Below the pieces are notes generated by a model. That model saw only the letters and a program-made list of their open reading frames with translations, had not been told where the DNA came from and did no database searches. A program made the translations under genes and the position numbers. This document shows positions 12,838 through 21,812 of a stretch of 34,920 bases of DNA, piece after piece; positions within the stretch are counted from its first letter, which is position 1, and each line of letters opens with the position of its first letter. This DNA is from a virus, in IMG/VR virus record IMGVR_UViG_3300027708_000191, positions 1-34,920 of that record; one strand, 5' to 3'.

Positions 12838-14883
12838 TTAAGCGACAACGCCGCCAATTTCTCTAGTATTCTTAGCTGTTTCGTTAGCATGACCCACTGC
12901 GTCTTTCATACTTCTATCAACAGATGCCATAATACTACTTATCTGATCTAATTTTTCAATCATTAAATTAGAATCAGGCATAGCACTAGCCATTTGCGCA
13001 ACTGCCTGTTCCACCTGCTGACTTCCACTGCTGACCATGGCTGGAATATTTTTCAATATTGCACTAAGATTGGGATTGCCCAGTGCTGAAGATATGTTGT
13101 TTTGAATCATGCCATCCACTTTGGGCATGAACATTTCAGCGCCACCTTCGCCTACAATATATGGCATTCCGGAATCAACACTGCCGCCACCTGCTTTGCC
13201 AGGAAATAACTTTTTAAATGCATTAGTCATTGCAGTTTCAAGATTTGCAGGGAGATCTTTAAAAGTTGTATTAGTTGTTGTAAACAATGCATGTACATCT
13301 TTAAGCATTCCAGGTATAGCACTTTGTATATTACCGTTGGCATCTATAACCGGCTGTTGCGATTGCGTAATCATTTTTTCTGTATCCGGATGTAATTTTA
13401 CTGTGCCATCTTTTTCCTTAATAAACTGAGGTATAGAGTTGTTAAGTGATGTAATAACTTTGTTTGTTTCTGCTCCCACTGTGCGCAACACGCCTTGGGC
13501 ATCTGCAACAAGTTGAGTTCCTATATTTCTAGGATCTTTCATGTTGTATTCACCTTTATTATCCTTAGTGGCTTTTAGAGTTTCTTCCACACCATTTATC
13601 ATGACTTTCATGTCTTCTGTTATCATGCCTCTGCTCTGTGCCTGTGCTATTTTTGCCATTTCATCTTTGGCTTGAGCCTCAGACATTCCTCCACCTTCTT
13701 TGCTCATCAATTTGTTAAGTTGATTGGTATAGTTGGTATATGCATCCCCAGTTTTTTCTGCAAATGCTTCTAGCGCCATTGCACTACCGTTTGTTTGCAT
13801 GGCAACAAATTCTGCATTTTTATTTCTATCTTGTGCAAGTATTCCAAACAACTCTTTAGTCATTGCGGCCGCTCTATCTTGATCTTCTTTTCTACTGCTA
13901 GTGGTAAGTTTACCAATTTCAACCATTTGTTGTGCGGCTCGTGGGCCATAAGTTAATACCAGCTCGGACATTTTTTCGCTGGTTACAACTCCTTTACCAG
14001 CAATGCTTTCATTTAGAAGTTTTGCAACTTCAGGAGGTAAAGCCGCGCCTGCATTTTGCACAGCCCGTACACTTGCTCTCATGGCGGGATCATTGTTTAA
14101 CACAGCAAGCCTAGCACGAACCCTTGCATCGTTTTCCATTGTTTCAATATTTTTTTGCAATTCTCTGCGACTGATACCTGTCAGCTTGGCCATGGTGTCC
14201 ATTTCTTGTGCTAAATTCACGGCGCTTTTCACCACTGCTTTCATATCCTCTTCGCTTTTGCTATTCAGATTCTGTCTGCCCATACGTATTTGCAAAGCCA
14301 ATATTTCATTAGCTTCTTTAGGCATTATACCCATGATGTTAAGCATGGATTGTAATTCAGGACTGTTAAGTGTTTTAGAATAGTTGGCAAATGCATCCAT
14401 GCCAGCTGTGAGTCCGCCTCCAAATTGAAACATGGCAGGTTTGAGTTTTTCCAATGAGTCGCCAAACTCACCAAATGACAAGCCAGTTTTCATAACAGCT
14501 TCACGGAACCCAATAGCATTGCCTGCAAAGTTCAATCCTTCTGTACTAAATTTTCTCCAATTGTCTATAGATTCTACCACAACACCGGCCAATGTACCAA
14601 ATACTGTACCTACTAATCTACCAGGCTCACCAAAGCTGTCAAAGATGCCTTTGACTGTTTGAGCCGCGTCGCCTAGCGACAGGGTATTACTGGATGCTTG
14701 TTTTGCAGTGTTCATAGCCCCACTGAAAATTGCCTTCATGGGGTCAAATGCATCTTTGGCTATATCCAAAAGGCTGGCATTGCCGCCATTTCTAGGTGCG
14801 TTATAATTGTTCGAGCCTGCGCCCGCAGTTTTAAACCCTTCAGTAATAGCGGTAGTGATTTGCCGTAATTCAGCGTCAGTCAT
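12838..14883 (-). CDS. 29: Tail tape measure protein, gp29-like
   Basis: A 681-residue protein that would set tail length and occupy the tail tube. Evidence is a long helical, low-Cys sequence with hydrophobic stretches (about residues 85-105, LVGTVFGTLAGVVVESI). A C-terminal motif at about 570-595 (GGGSVDSGMPYIVGEGGAEM followed by FMPKVDG) is a hallmark of tape measure proteins in many phages. It is slightly longer than T4 gp29 (590). The gene is divergent from gp26 and the gp51-like frame, whose lambda-type analogues are tape-measure chaperones. It has its own late box at 14928-14935 and AGGAAA before the ATG. Function is confident; orthology to T4 gp29 is by position and type. Confidence 0.8.
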   Translation of the reverse strand: MTDAELRQITTAITEGFKTAGAGSNNYNAPRNGGNASLLDIAKDAFDPMKAIFSGAMNTAKQASSNTLSLGDAAQTVKGIFDSFGEPGRLVGTVFGTLAGVVVESIDNWRKFSTEGLNFAGNAIGFREAVMKTGLSFGEFGDSLEKLKPAMFQFGGGLTAGMDAFANYSKTLNSPELQSMLNIMGIMPKEANEILALQIRMGRQNLNSKSEEDMKAVVKSAVNLAQEMDTMAKLTGISRRELQKNIETMENDARVRARLAVLNNDPAMRASVRAVQNAGAALPPEVAKLLNESIAGKGVVTSEKMSELVLTYGPRAAQQMVEIGKLTTSSRKEDQDRAAAMTKELFGILAQDRNKNAEFVAMQTNGSAMALEAFAEKTGDAYTNYTNQLNKLMSKEGGGMSEAQAKDEMAKIAQAQSRGMITEDMKVMINGVEETLKATKDNKGEYNMKDPRNIGTQLVADAQGVLRTVGAETNKVITSLNNSIPQFIKEKDGTVKLHPDTEKMITQSQQPVIDANGNIQSAIPGMLKDVHALFTTTNTTFKDLPANLETAMTNAFKKLFPGKAGGGSVDSGMPYIVGEGGAEMFMPKVDGMIQNNISSALGNPNLSAILKNIPAMVSSGSQQVEQAVAQMASAMPDSNLMIEKLDQISSIMASVDRSMKDAVGHANETAKNTREIGGVVA

Positions 14884-14946: not shown

Positions 14947-15774
14947 ATGGCCACAAACCCATTGAAGAAATATTTTAGACAACCAAAGGTCTATATAGGA
15001 TTACCTAGTAAAGGCATTTACAATCAACCCGGAGCGTTGAACGGCGATCCAACAAACATTCCTGTTTTTGGAATGACTGGCATGGACGAAATTTTAATCA
15101 AAACTCCAGATGCTTTATTAAACGGGGAAGCCACTGTAAAAGTCATTGAAAGCTGTTGTCCAATCATACAGGATGCGTGGGATCTGTGCTTGCTGGATCT
15201 TGACATGATCCTCACCGCTATTAGAATTGCAACTCAAGGCAACACTATGCAGGTATCACATGCTTGTACAAATTGCGGCGCAATTAATGACTACGATGTT
15301 GAACTGGGTACCGTTATTGAACACTACAGTAAATGTGAATACGACAGTAAGATTGTTTTAAAAGATTTATCAGTTAAGATACAACCGTTGACTTATAAAC
15401 AATGGACTGAGTTTCAAGTAAAAAACTTTCAGCTACAAAGACAATTAAAACAAATTATGGAAATAACAGATCCAGCACAACAAACTGCACTGGTTTCTGA
15501 AATGTATACTAAAATAACGTCTATACAAAAAGAAGCTATATTTTTACAAATTGCCAGCGTTGATACCGGCAATCAAATAGTTGAAGAGCGAGAGTTTATC
15601 AGTGAATGGCTTGCTAACTGTGACAAAACTATTTTTGATGCTGTAAAAGCTATAGTTGAAAAAAATAGGATAGCATGGGAAATTCCTAAAATTTCTGCCA
15701 AGTGCGACAGTTGCGGAACTGAAAACAATGTGTCGATAACCCTGGATCAAGCAAGTTTTTTCGCGACAGCCTAG
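14947..15774 (+). CDS. 26: Baseplate/tail assembly protein gp26, shift donor
   Basis: A 275-residue protein of the T4 gp26-type baseplate family. The N-terminus (NPLKKYFRQPKVYIGLPSKG) and the GMTGMDEILIKTPDALLNGE segment are characteristic. Two zinc-ribbon CxxC pairs are visible: C107/C110 (ACTNCGA) and C253/C256 (KCDSCGT). The reading frame ends SFFATA-stop, but the T TTT TTC run encoding FF is a slippery site, and ribosomes shifting to -1 would continue into the gp51-like frame, making a 349-residue fusion. In T4, gp26 and gp51 are hub assembly factors. The gene is divergent from the tape measure, with a late box and GGAG upstream. The short form is certain as a gene; the extended form is inferred. 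Confidence 0.9.
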   Translation: MATNPLKKYFRQPKVYIGLPSKGIYNQPGALNGDPTNIPVFGMTGMDEILIKTPDALLNGEATVKVIESCCPIIQDAWDLCLLDLDMILTAIRIATQGNTMQVSHACTNCGAINDYDVELGTVIEHYSKCEYDSKIVLKDLSVKIQPLTYKQWTEFQVKNFQLQRQLKQIMEITDPAQQTALVSEMYTKITSIQKEAIFLQIASVDTGNQIVEEREFISEWLANCDKTIFDAVKAIVEKNRIAWEIPKISAKCDSCGTENNVSITLDQASFFATA

Positions 15775-15817
15775 TTAGGTTAGATAACACAGATATTGAA
15801 GAATATCTAACTAGGCT
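15756..15817 (+). promoter_or_regulatory. Programmed -1 frameshift signal
   Basis: Three elements are visible in order. T TTT TTC at 15756-15762 is in the gp26 frame as X XXY YYZ. A 5-nt spacer follows (15763-15767). Then AGCCTAGTTAG (15768-15778) pairs perfectly over 11 bp with CTAACTAGGCT (15807-15817) across a 28-nt loop. The gp26 stop (15772-15774) lies inside the stem, and the -1 frame is open from 15762 to 15995. This is the canonical heptamer-spacer-stem layout known from phage tail chaperone genes and retroviruses. Use and efficiency are not shown. Confidence 0.75.
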
Positions 15818-15995
15818 AGAAGAAGCCATTAAAAATTACAAAACACAACTGTATCAAATATGTTGGTACATGCGTGGCGGTGTAACTATAGATAATTTAT
15901 TGTTTGATTTAAGTTTAGAAGACATCAAAATGATGAATTCTATAATACAAAATAATATCGAAATTACAAAGAAAAGCGGACTGGCTTTAATTTAA
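15762..15995 (+). CDS. gp51-like C-terminal extension in the -1 frame of gp26
   Basis: Seventy-seven residues in the -1 frame run from the shift site to TAA at 15993-15995. The sequence begins RDSLVRLDNTDIEEYLTRLE and contains ICWYMRGGVTIDNLLFDLSL and NNIEITKKSGLALI. From memory, the W(F/Y)MRGG...S...N.E.TKKSG pattern recurs at the end of gp26/gp51-type proteins in T4-like phages. Between the shift site and the ATG at 15870 there is no ATG, GTG or TTG, and no ribosome site precedes that ATG, so normal initiation would lose half the conserved block. It is therefore best read as the tail of a gp26 fusion, as in lambda G/GT. It overlaps the converging gene by 9 bp. Alternatively it is a decayed gene. 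Confidence 0.75.
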   Translation, partial: RDSLVRLDNTDIEEYLTRLEEAIKNYKTQLYQICWYMRGGVTIDNLLFDLSLEDIKMMNSIIQNNIEITKKSGLALI

Positions 15996-16769
15996 AGATC
16001 CAGTAGGCGCTATCATAGGTTTGAAATCTTTTTGTATATCCGCTTTGGCTTTTTCCATGTCAGCATAGCTGGCTAATTTTGGACCAGCTTGTGCGGCTCC
16101 GTTAGCCGCAACAGCCGCGCCGGTAGCGGGATTGATTTGGCTAATGGGTATATGCAATTTGTCTTCGATATGCCCAGCCAACCAGTCCCAGGAACCTGCA
16201 ACACCCTTGCCGCCGAATCTAATCAGCTTCATCAACGACTGTCCTAATAATCCTTGGACAAACTCTGTACTTAAAGATGCTTGTAATGCAAGTATAGCGG
16301 CATGCCCTATAATTTTTCCTTTACTGCCAAGGCCTTTTTCGATCACATCTACTAATTTATTCAGCATAGGAGTACCATTGCGAACCCAAATGATAATTGG
16401 CTTCATTAAAATCTGCGTGGCGATTATTCCATAATACTGATCACGAGCATTGTCAATATATTCATTTTTTTGTTCTTGTGTGTAGTTGGCAAATGCAGGA
16501 TTGCTGGCTCTGAATGTTTCCAAATCTTGTTTGGCTATTTGCTCTAATGCATACAGATTCACATTGAGTATGCCAACCAGTGCTGTGATTCCAATGATCT
16601 TAAAGATTTTCAAGGATGCCGGGTCATATTTTGTCAAAGATTCTTGAGCCAATGCTTCTGCTTGCTTGGCATTGGCCTTGATCCAAGATTGTGCCAAGGT
16701 CTCAATCTGTTGCTGTGTAAGCACAATAGGAGCGGGAGCAGTTTCTACGATTATGTCTAAAATCTTCAT
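15987..16769 (-). CDS. Membrane-associated protein of unknown function
   Basis: A 260-residue protein I do not recognise. It opens MKILDIIVETAPAPIVLTQQ and has hydrophobic stretches near residues 55-76 (FKIIGITALVGILNVNLYAL), 112-127 (IIATQILMKPIIIWV) and 150-168 (IIGHAAILALQASLSTEFV), interrupted by charged helices. The C-terminal 40 residues are Ala/Gly/Lys-rich and probably flexible. It could be an internal virion or membrane-interacting protein; similar phage proteins often lack known roles. It converges on the gp26-51 cassette with a 9-bp overlap. A perfect TATAAATA box ends 7 bp before the ATG and no ribosome site is visible, so translation may be leaderless or the box unused. Confidence 0.7.
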   Translation of the reverse strand: MKILDIIVETAPAPIVLTQQQIETLAQSWIKANAKQAEALAQESLTKYDPASLKIFKIIGITALVGILNVNLYALEQIAKQDLETFRASNPAFANYTQEQKNEYIDNARDQYYGIIATQILMKPIIIWVRNGTPMLNKLVDVIEKGLGSKGKIIGHAAILALQASLSTEFVQGLLGQSLMKLIRFGGKGVAGSWDWLAGHIEDKLHIPISQINPATGAAVAANGAAQAGPKLASYADMEKAKADIQKDFKPMIAPTGSLN

Positions 16770-18183: not shown

Positions 18184-19961
18184 TATTCTGTTACCTCCAA
18201 ATCATTTGCGTACGACGTAAAGCCATTTTCTTTAATGACTTTGAGTACATTGTTTACCCGCCCAATCAATTCATCCTTGTGACTGATTAAGAAGATGTTC
18301 TTTTTGCGTTCACGGCTCATCTTTTTAAGCACGGCTAACGCACCCTCGACACCGCTAGCATCTAGTCCGTTGTCTATAAGTTCGTCAACAAACAACAAGT
18401 TGATCTGCTGATACAAACTTTCCCACACGTCACGAAAACTCCATGACAAACCAAGTATAAGACGGTTACGCTCTCCTCGACTTAGGTTATCAAAATCTAA
18501 GTCTTGCCCTAGCTGTGTTATCTCAACTGTTAGGTCATTTTGGAATACCACAGTATGTGGCAAGCCCATCTTATCAAGATAATAAGTCAGACGATTGTTA
18601 AGATAAGCTAGGTTTTGATCTATAATCTTTTTGCGTATAAAGCTGTCTTTGCTGGTTAGTAGTTTAAGTAAAAACTCCTGATGGTCTTTAAGCGTGTTAA
18701 GCTCATTGACCTTATCCCACGAAATTTCCTGCATGGCAGTATGACGTAATTCGTCAATTTGCTCCTGGTAAGGATCCGTTTCGCCTGCCTTAACAGTCAA
18801 TTGTGTTTCGAGAGTTTTTAAATTATTCTGATGTTTAAGAGCGGCTTCAACCGTATCATAGTAAGTTTCCGGACGAGTATTTACTTCGCCGATAGCATCT
18901 ATTTCTGTTTGTATTTTATTACGATCTTTAGTAACTTTATCAAAGTACTTTTGTGCATCAGCCAAGTGTTGTTGAGCTGTGGCAGACATTTCTTCATGTT
19001 TGTGATCATGTAGTTCTTGTTCGCAAGCGTGACACTTTTTGTCCTTCAACTTAGCAAGCTCGTCAGCGTACTTTTTTACGCTTCGCTCCGCTTGCGCTGT
19101 CGCGCTGTCTAGCGTTGCCCTCTCCTTAGCCAGGCTTTTCAGCTTTGCTGTCTTTTCTTCGAAAAGTTTTAGCTCGCTGTGCTTGGCCAGTTCAGCTTCA
19201 ATGTCCACACTTTCAAGTTCAATGATAGCCCTTGCAGTTCTTTCAATATCCGCTTCGTGCTGAGTATTCCACGCATGTTGTCGGGTGATCAAACTGTCAA
19301 CACTAAGTTGAATTTTCTCGTTGGATTTTTTAGCGGCTTCGATATCTGCGCTTTCTTGTAGCACTTGATCTTTAGTTGTTCTGATTAGTTCTTTAAGTGT
19401 TTCTGCTTTTTCACTCAAGATAGTTATGCCCAATAACTGTTCAATAATAGCACGTTGGTCATTGGCCCGCATACTTAAAAACGGTTCTGTATAGGTGTTT
19501 AGTGCTACAATATGCTTGAACATGTCGTGGCTCATACCTAACAACTCATCTAAGTCTTTTTGTGTTTCGCGCATGTCGCCCTGTGCGTCATCTGTTTCTT
19601 CTGCTTGTTGTTCTTGGTCATCCACGAAGAAACGCATGAGTGTCGGCTTGCGCCCACGTTCGATACGATAGTCTATACCGTCTTTTTCAAACATTAGTGT
19701 AACTAACATATTTTTGTTGTTAATCTTGTTGATAAGATTATCTTTTTTAATGTTGGTCAAAGCATTGCCAAACAGTGCGAAACTCAGTGCATTCACAATG
19801 GTTGTTTTGCCAGTACCATTACGGCTACCGCTGTCATCACCGCCTTGATCCAAGTTTTCACCTAGTACAAGTGTTAGGTTAGCTTTGTCAAACGCAACTC
19901 CTTGAGTTTGGTTTCCCACACTCATGAAGTTTTTAACAGTTAATTCTTTAATCTTTATCAT
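18183..19961 (-). CDS. 46: Recombination exonuclease subunit gp46 (Rad50-like ATPase)
   Basis: A 592-residue SMC/Rad50-type ATPase. Visible motifs are Walker A GSRNGTGKTT (45-54), a zinc hook CHAC (C310/C313) at the tip of a coiled coil spanning about 180-430, the ABC signature LSRGERNRL (493-501), Walker B NLLFVDE (521-527) and the D-loop NGLDASG (531-537). With gp47 it forms the nuclease complex that resects DNA ends for recombination-dependent replication and degrades host DNA in T4. It overlaps the gp47 stop by 4 bp (ATGA), indicating coupled synthesis. Length is close to T4 gp46 (560). All catalytic motifs are intact. Confidence 0.95.
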   Translation of the reverse strand: MIKIKELTVKNFMSVGNQTQGVAFDKANLTLVLGENLDQGGDDSGSRNGTGKTTIVNALSFALFGNALTNIKKDNLINKINNKNMLVTLMFEKDGIDYRIERGRKPTLMRFFVDDQEQQAEETDDAQGDMRETQKDLDELLGMSHDMFKHIVALNTYTEPFLSMRANDQRAIIEQLLGITILSEKAETLKELIRTTKDQVLQESADIEAAKKSNEKIQLSVDSLITRQHAWNTQHEADIERTARAIIELESVDIEAELAKHSELKLFEEKTAKLKSLAKERATLDSATAQAERSVKKYADELAKLKDKKCHACEQELHDHKHEEMSATAQQHLADAQKYFDKVTKDRNKIQTEIDAIGEVNTRPETYYDTVEAALKHQNNLKTLETQLTVKAGETDPYQEQIDELRHTAMQEISWDKVNELNTLKDHQEFLLKLLTSKDSFIRKKIIDQNLAYLNNRLTYYLDKMGLPHTVVFQNDLTVEITQLGQDLDFDNLSRGERNRLILGLSWSFRDVWESLYQQINLLFVDELIDNGLDASGVEGALAVLKKMSRERKKNIFLISHKDELIGRVNNVLKVIKENGFTSYANDLEVTE

Positions 19962-20986
19962 AGGCTATTATAGATTTCCAGCAAGGTATTCTTATTATAC
20001 GTGTCTGAGTCAATGTTTACAATCTGATTGGAAACAATCTGATCTACACTTTCAAACGACTGGATATCAATGTTGGTATTCATCTCAACTTCTTTGCGTT
20101 CTGTAATCAAAGTCAGTTCACGAATAGCATAATCCGTAATAAACTTTTCTTTAATGAAACTGGCTTCTTCGTATGAAATATCAATATCCAGTGCAACACG
20201 TAGATGTTGTTTGGGTTTGATAATAGTATCAGCTTCGTCAATCAAACGACTCAGTGTGACAGTACGGAATGTGGGTTGGTCGGGCCAACTGTGATATTGA
20301 GGTTCACCATCCCACTCCAATATCATCATGCCTCTATCATCGTCCCATGTGTCTGCATAGTTGTGCGGGAAAGCATTGCCAATATAAATCATGTTCTTTT
20401 GTTGCTGACGTTTGTGAAAGTGCCCGCTGAATCCCAGTTCGTATCCTTTGAAACTGTCCAATGCAATCTCGCCGTGATCCGGCATTTGTACCATTGCGTT
20501 CATAAAGAAGCTGGGTAATTCAAAGTGTCCAAAGATGTACTTGCCACCTTTCTTGCCTATGCTTCGCCATTCATCCCCTACAAGCCAAGGACACAAAGTA
20601 ACATCACCAATAGTAACGGGCTCGTGTACCACAGTAATACCCGGAATGTACTTGCCAAACTCTACAGAATGGATGTCCCGCTTGTCTTTATAATATAAAT
20701 CATGATTACCAGGGAAAAAGTAAAATGCATCGAACGCCTTTCCCAGCTTTTCCAAGGCCCGCAAGCTATAGTCCATAGTAGTGATATTAAGACTATTGCG
20801 ATTGTGATGCCAATCGCCCATAAAAATTCCAGTATCACAGCCTTCCTCCTTTGCCTTAGCAATATACCAATCTACGAAATCTTCGCAGTCTTGATTATGC
20901 ACACTACTGTTAGATTTTAGCCCAAAGTGTATGTCTGTAAAACAAGCAACTTTTTTAAACAGTTGGGGTTTCTGTGGGTGTGTCAT
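19958..20986 (-). CDS. 47: Recombination exonuclease subunit gp47 (Mre11-like)
   Basis: A calcineurin-like metallophosphoesterase, nuclease partner of gp46. Metal-binding motifs are DIH (D18, H20), GDWHHNR (D58), GNHD (94-96 for N-H-D), GHFELP and GHFHKR. The frame is open further upstream to an ATG at 21025, but GAGGAC sits just before the ATG at 20986 and the family begins near this point, so I choose 20986 (342 residues, like T4 gp47 at 339). It overlaps the end of gp55 by 32 bp and the start of gp46 by 4 bp. Confidence 0.93.
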   Translation of the reverse strand: MTHPQKPQLFKKVACFTDIHFGLKSNSSVHNQDCEDFVDWYIAKAKEEGCDTGIFMGDWHHNRNSLNITTMDYSLRALEKLGKAFDAFYFFPGNHDLYYKDKRDIHSVEFGKYIPGITVVHEPVTIGDVTLCPWLVGDEWRSIGKKGGKYIFGHFELPSFFMNAMVQMPDHGEIALDSFKGYELGFSGHFHKRQQQKNMIYIGNAFPHNYADTWDDDRGMMILEWDGEPQYHSWPDQPTFRTVTLSRLIDEADTIIKPKQHLRVALDIDISYEEASFIKEKFITDYAIRELTLITERKEVEMNTNIDIQSFESVDQIVSNQIVNIDSDTYNKNTLLEIYNSL

Positions 20987-21812
20987 TAGTAGTGTCCTCG
21001 TTATGTCGTTTAAGTGCGGCCGCATGTTCTCCAGCGCCGGTACGTGAGTAAGACGGATTCATACCGTTCATTTCTAAAATATCATCACGGATGTTTTGAT
21101 TACGTTTTTCAATATTAATAACACGGACAAAGCTGTTGGTTACGGCCGCAGTAAAATAAGCAAACGGATTGTCTGATTTGCTTTCATCAAATTGCAAGCC
21201 TACTTGTGTTAGTTGTAGTATGGCCTGGCCTCGCATTTCATCGTTGTAAGTATATCCACGAACGTTGCCGCGAGTGGCATATCGCTCACACAGTTTGATC
21301 ATCATGCGAGCCAGTGTGGGTGTAATTTGTCCGGCATCCTTGTCAAAGTGACCCTTGGCCAACGTGCCCTTCCAGTGGCTTTTGCCCACACAAACCAGTT
21401 CGTCTTCGGTGTTGAACTTCCAGTGTTGGAATGGCGGAAAGTTAACTTTGTCTCTATGATCAGCAAGACTTTTAGGATTCTTTTTACGAACAGTATTCAG
21501 CGGAATATGATCATATGTCATAACCCTGAATATTAATTCGTGTTTAGTAATTTTTTTATAGTCAACTTCACAATCTGCTTGTTTAACTTTTTCGCCAGCA
21601 CGTTTGCGTGTTTGATAATCTAAATCTCCTAGGCGTTTGGCTTTATTACGTTTGGCTTCGGCGATCGTGCGTATGTTTATTTTGTCTATATTTGGTATAA
21701 TTAAGTCATATTGATGATATAATGGATCGGTAAAACTACAATAACTGCTTTTGGATCTATGTATTTCCAAAAGCATATCTTTGTTGTTTAAGTAATTGAT
21801 TTTCGCTGTCAT
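20955..21812 (-). CDS. 55: Late-transcription sigma factor gp55 (extended form)
   Basis: A 285-residue protein whose residues about 165-245 match the gp55 core: LARMMIKLCERYATRG, YTYNDEMRGQAILQL, and NPFAYFTAAVTNSFVRVINI followed by EKRNQNI. This is the sigma region 2-like module that recognises TAAATA promoters. T4 gp55 is 185 residues; here about 100 extra N-terminal residues (MLLEIHRSKSSYCSF; EAKRNKAKRLGDLDY; NFPPFQHWKF) precede it. I recall the longer form in other aquatic T4-like phages. A Thr/Glu/Asp-rich tail ends it. It is the first gene of an operon with gp47 and gp46, with a GAGGAC ribosome site and a near-consensus sigma-70 promoter. Confidence 0.87.
   Translation of the reverse strand: MTAKINYLNNKDMLLEIHRSKSSYCSFTDPLYHQYDLIIPNIDKINIRTIAEAKRNKAKRLGDLDYQTRKRAGEKVKQADCEVDYKKITKHELIFRVMTYDHIPLNTVRKKNPKSLADHRDKVNFPPFQHWKFNTEDELVCVGKSHWKGTLAKGHFDKDAGQITPTLARMMIKLCERYATRGNVRGYTYNDEMRGQAILQLTQVGLQFDESKSDNPFAYFTAAVTNSFVRVINIEKRNQNIRDDILEMNGMNPSYSRTGAGEHAAALKRHNEDTTNDTPTETPTV

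Follow-up and report, generated by a model that had tools for sequence, protein, structure and literature searches.

A predicted −1 ribosomal frameshift linking gp26 to a gp51-type tail in T4-like phages

The window analysed here is a stretch of 34,920 nucleotides from a virus (IMG/VR record IMGVR_UViG_3300027708_000191, positions 1 to 34,920). It contains a gene for gp26 (14947–15774, plus strand; 275 aa, stop codon TAG at 15772–15774), which scores above the curated threshold for Pfam T4_baseplate (PF12322; E = 1.9e-11, 44.5 bits, cut-off 24.5) and also matches PHROG 150, baseplate hub (E = 5e-14). The end of this gene is overlapped by an open −1 frame (15762–15995, plus strand; 77 aa plus the stop codon TAA at 15993–15995). 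The locus thus raises the question of whether this frame is a small gene in its own right or is joined to gp26 by a programmed frameshift, as an earlier note made from the letters of the window had proposed. Comparison of sequences supports the second reading with a probability of roughly nine in ten: the window phage would make two versions of a tail-assembly helper from gp26 through −1 programmed ribosomal frameshifting at TTTTTTC.

The frameshift site of the window

The heptamer T_TTT_TTC lies at 15756–15762 (plus strand), its TTT and TTC being codons of gp26. It is separated by a spacer of 5 nt (15763–15767) from a perfect 11 bp stem, the 5′ arm of which (15768–15778) holds the 0-frame stop codon TAG and pairs with a 3′ arm at 15807–15817; in the MFE fold the pairing reaches 15780 on the 5′ side and back to 15805 on the 3′ side. 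Over 77 codons the −1 frame meets no stop, and it contains no ATG, GTG or TTG before 15870; its first start codon is the ATG at 15870–15872, which encodes the methionine of WYM in the WYMRGG block. All of these positions were confirmed from the sequence as the earlier note had given them.

In the proposed mechanism most ribosomes would read TTT TTC, meet the stop four codons on and release gp26, the short form (TAC-N, 275 aa). In a minority the two tRNA-Phe on T_TTT_TTC would slip back by one base as the ribosome meets the stem 5 nt downstream, and translation would go on in the −1 frame (TAC-C, the counterpart of the C-terminal part of gp51). The product would be a gp26–tail fusion (TAC-NC) with a predicted length of 272 + 77 = 349 aa, equivalent to T4 gp51. 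From the data described below we infer the slippage itself, its efficiency and the chaperone role of the products.

The heptamer by itself is no proof, because TTTTTTC is common in the window record (13 occurrences on the two strands together), and it is conservation that decides. Only 0.07% of base-shuffling trials gave a frame that stayed open for as long as the −1 frame of the window. The last nine bases of the tail (15987–15995) overlap the end of a convergent ORF of 260 aa (15987–16769, minus strand). Elsewhere in the window (19958–21812) an SbcD-like nuclease ORF and a late sigma factor ORF, both on the minus strand, overlap by 71 bases (20955–21025).

Conservation of the heptamer, stem and −1 frame

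The comparison comprised 80 gp26 sequences from a scan of IMG/VR, ranging from 100 to 33% identity. The earlier note had proposed a check of conservation in an alignment of relatives; heptamer, phase, position of the stem and −1 frame were all found to be conserved. An in-phase T_TTT_TTC was present in 79 of 79 testable relatives, comprising all 77 intact ORFs plus L015 and L086, in which the 0 frame is broken upstream of the heptamer; the sequence of L056 stops short of the site and was left out. In L015 (3426–4250) an in-frame nonsense codon occurs at position 238 of a gp26 that is otherwise 73% identical, reflecting either sequencing error or decay. The distance from heptamer to stop in the 77 intact frames was 3, 9 or 12 nt. 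No P value is given for the conservation of the heptamer because the sequences are related. Among 50 less redundant sequences the codon preceding the Phe pair was AAT, AGT, CAT, GGT, GAT, CGT or ACT, thus specifying seven amino acids and always ending in T, and the second Phe codon was invariably TTC, whereas Phe elsewhere in those genes was encoded by TTT 528 times and by TTC 86 times. Judged from these sequences, the pattern of T-ended preceding codon and TTC runs against codon bias, and amino-acid constraint is not the explanation.

In most relatives the stem starts 5–6 nt 3′ of the heptamer. The MFE fold of the window extends it from 11 to 13 pairs via G–U and U–A and has an energy of −17.5 kcal/mol (z = −3.1 over 100 nt; z = −3.9 over 75 nt); the mean z over 51 sequences was −2.65. 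Within the window clade the stem pairs hold in 94.7% of cells, compared with 12–55% when the partners are slid (one alignment row, L011, has an extra 5′ base added by hand outside the stem). Compensatory swaps occur in this clade at two adjacent pairs (A–U to G–C and C–G to U–A), six further pairs show G–U or one-sided changes, and changes in the last base of the stop codon (TAA/TAG) are matched by changes in its stem partner. Third codon positions are nearly invariant in both arms and variable elsewhere. In a marine clade that is further removed, a different stem (AGGATC.../...GATCCT) lies equally far from the heptamer, with weaker support. In E. coli, U_UUU_UUC belongs to the heptamers at which shifting needs no stimulator (PMC4066793).

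The −1 frame, which overlaps gp26 and lacks a start of its own, is conserved, with ATGA overlaps in a minority of relatives, and ends 71–74 codons beyond the gp26 stop in every intact relative. Codon positions 1, 2 and 3 show diversities of 0.30, 0.18 and 0.46, respectively, among sequences of the window clade; the frame is therefore protein coding. The block WYMRGG...TKKSG, which had looked conserved from the window alone, belongs to a protein conserved in the IMG/VR relatives, and the residues R1, K24, W35, M37, R38, G39 and N65 are invariant among 38 diverse tails. An AlphaFold2 model of the 77 aa tail has three helices (mean pLDDT 86.8). Scans of Pfam and PHROG gave no significant family for the tail, tblastn against phages matched only Atu_ph07 and Sinorhizobium phage Phosso, both weakly, and a Foldseek search with the model returned only weak matches, to short uncharacterized phage proteins.

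These data bear on three other readings of the locus. The tail could be a separate small gene, translated by termination–reinitiation at or near the gp26 stop, as the databases annotate it in related phages: separate ORFs are annotated in 121Q, GAP32, P-SSM7, phiM12 and others, the gp26 stop forms an ATGA in nine relatives and a TAATG is present in several named phages. In the window, however, the first start codon comes 98 nt after the stop, within the most conserved block, and a start with an SD-like site close to the beginning of the tail was found in only six of 84 sequences; moreover, reinitiation leaves the invariant heptamer, the choice of TTC and the stem unexplained, which makes this reading improbable. 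The ATGA in the nine relatives (L040, L049–L051, L057, L058 and L076–L078) could add reinitiation to frameshifting there.

Slippage of RNA polymerase on the T run, rather than of the ribosome, could also join the two frames, since poly-T runs can slip and the run in HTVC008M consists of eight T. Most sites, however, have only six T, always end in C and always keep the X_XXY_YYZ phase, and a stem placed 5–6 nt downstream is what usually stimulates ribosomal slippage; this reading is accordingly rated even lower than reinitiation. That the shift is merely a sequencing or assembly indel, or marks a decayed gene, might be suspected of a metagenomic contig such as this one, but the layout is repeated in ∼80 separate contigs and in the genomes of cultured phages; sequencing error and gene decay were rejected on these comparative data, and their likelihood is negligible. 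Ribosomal frameshifting at the heptamer remains the preferred reading.

Named phages and the two-gene arrangement of T4

T_TTT_TTC followed by a −1 tail was found in six cultured jumbo phages (Atu_ph07, Phosso, CBB, GAP32, 121Q and PA5oct) and also in S-SM2, P-SSM7, Aeromonas phage Asswx_1, Stenotrophomonas phage BUCT608 and Vibrio phage D480, while the tail follows T_TTT_TTT in HTVC008M and phiM12 and T_TTT_TTG in RHph_N34. Besides the jumbo phages, the frameshift layout occurs in cyanophages, pelagiphages, rhizobiophages and an Aeromonas phage. Asswx_1 (L117; Straboviridae, Ceceduovirus), itself of the T4 family, keeps the T_TTT_TTC layout, whereas in the rest of the Straboviridae examined 26 and 51 are separate genes. 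Records that annotate the tail list it as a gene apart, either a ‘baseplate hub assembly catalyst’ (gp51) or a hypothetical protein, and often give it an internal start codon. The short gp51 or hypothetical genes 3′ of gp26 in L115, L116, L121, L123, L094, L095 and L102 have the appearance of frameshift tails annotated wrongly; they come from cyanophages, the pelagiphage HTVC008M, rhizobiophages, a Vibrio phage and jumbo phages. A related −1 tail is present in Ackermannviridae (Salmonella phage Vi01, L120; Klebsiella phage Zahir, L124; Vibrio phage YC, L122) and in Vibrio phage K413 (L119), where no canonical X_XXY_YYZ heptamer but only TTTC-type runs were found, with TAATG in some of the four; the joining mechanism in these phages may differ.

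T4, 44RR, an Acinetobacter phage and an RB49-like phage carry genes 26 and 51 in divergent orientation, and in EC-F2 the two are in tandem, with 51 first. In these phages gp26 and gp51 are paralogues (99.3%, E = 6e-21), and the C-terminus of T4 gp51 aligns with the −1 tails of a Kyanoviridae-type set, which includes other phages as well, from the frameshift point onward (97.0%, E = 1.2e-10). T4 gp51 is read as a frameshift product fused into a gene of its own because it is a gp26 paralogue whose C-terminus aligns with the −1 tails. The tail of the window type scores only marginally against that of T4 gp51 (21.3, where 100 column shuffles reached at most 18.8), in the same register, and a direct comparison of the fusion profile with T4 gp51 is weak (19.7%), so that intermediates are needed. 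The description of the tail as gp51-like in the earlier note therefore holds for the C-terminal part of gp51 and not for the whole protein, which in T4 has 249 aa and consists of a gp26-like domain plus the tail. The window locus is without a separate full-length gp51; its −1 frame supplies only the C-tail, and gp26 would provide the N-domain through the shift.

Normally started gp51 genes without a slippery run, which had been named in advance as counting against a frameshift, do exist, but they are confined to one branch, that of Straboviridae such as T4, 44RR and RB49-like phages. An unrooted tree built from 41 N-domains places the two-gene type on one side of a branch with support 98/97, a position that fits a single switch from frameshifting to two genes. 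It appears likely from these comparisons that frameshifting is the ancestral and commonest route to gp26 and gp51 in T4-like phages, that duplication and fusion of the frameshifted gene gave rise to the T4 pair on a single occasion within Straboviridae, and that the short ‘gp51’ genes of cyanophages, pelagiphages, rhizobiophages and jumbo phages are frameshift tails and not genes. The frameshift reading of the locus corrects how the tail gene is annotated across several phage families; it would account for gp51 as the longer member of a chaperone pair and make the role of gp51 testable, and the T4 branch would offer a natural case in which frameshifting was probably replaced by gene duplication.

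Chaperone role and comparison with known systems

The gene on the other side of gp26 (12838–14883, minus strand; 681 aa) probably encodes the tape measure protein, as had been suggested for this divergent neighbour; the assignment draws on a C-terminal motif, PYIVGEGGAEMFMP, and on weak tblastn matches, which coincide with annotated tape measure proteins in five out of six records (one phage being represented by two copies among the six). A scan of the relatives for tape-measure motifs gave only near-identical contigs, so that a divergent tape measure gene is unsupported across the family. In HTVC008M the tail tube gene is followed by gp26, the gp51 tail, one small gene and a putative tape measure gene, an order like that of lambda. 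A model of gp26 (pLDDT 85) gave no match at E below 1 in a Foldseek search of the PDB, which leaves a TAC fold of the lambda type unsupported. gp26 and gp51 have been described as hub assembly chaperones, gp51 being required for assembly and not present in the particle (PMC3004832). By analogy with lambda, gp26 and the fusion would form a chaperone pair of the G/GT type; the two forms would act jointly on the tape measure protein, probably the product of the divergent 681 aa gene, chaperoning it and delivering tail-tube protein to it.

Conserved frameshifting in tail-assembly chaperone genes, with lambda gpG/gpGT as the example, was reportedly described by Xu, Hendrix and Duda in 2004. The lambda case has been reviewed (PMC5009743). 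For T4-like phages the TAC genes have been identified by Vladimirov, Gautam & Davidson (2022; Virology 566:9–15), as cited in PMC10885494 and PMC12846349; going by its title, that paper proposes a mechanism other than frameshifting. Of the two citing papers, PMC10885494 attributes to it, for ‘some T4-like phages’, a short gene alongside a long, fused one, while PMC12846349 attributes to it knowledge of poly-T slippery sites in T4-like TAC-N genes. As far as these citations convey, gp26 and gp51 are thus already published as tail-assembly chaperones of T4-like phages and poly-T slippery sites have reportedly been noted; the earlier note's suggestion that the two form a frameshift pair is supported comparatively, but their standing as T4-like chaperones was already in the literature.

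A close parallel is the TAC frameshift of Vandenendeviridae and Andersonviridae (PMC12846349), which likewise have a conserved poly-T −1 site, a −1 frame open in all genomes and a tail annotated as hypothetical, but belong to other virus families and use GTTTTT instead of T_TTT_TTC. T4 itself shares with the window a homologous gp26, and the −1 tails of intermediate phages match the C-terminal tail of its gp51, but its short and long forms are encoded by two divergent genes without a slippery site. With lambda G/GT the window shares the position of gp26 next to a probable tape measure gene, although this gene is divergent in the window and immediately downstream in lambda; the window further differs in its protein family (PF12322, a zinc-ribbon gp26), in its heptamer and in the strong downstream stem.
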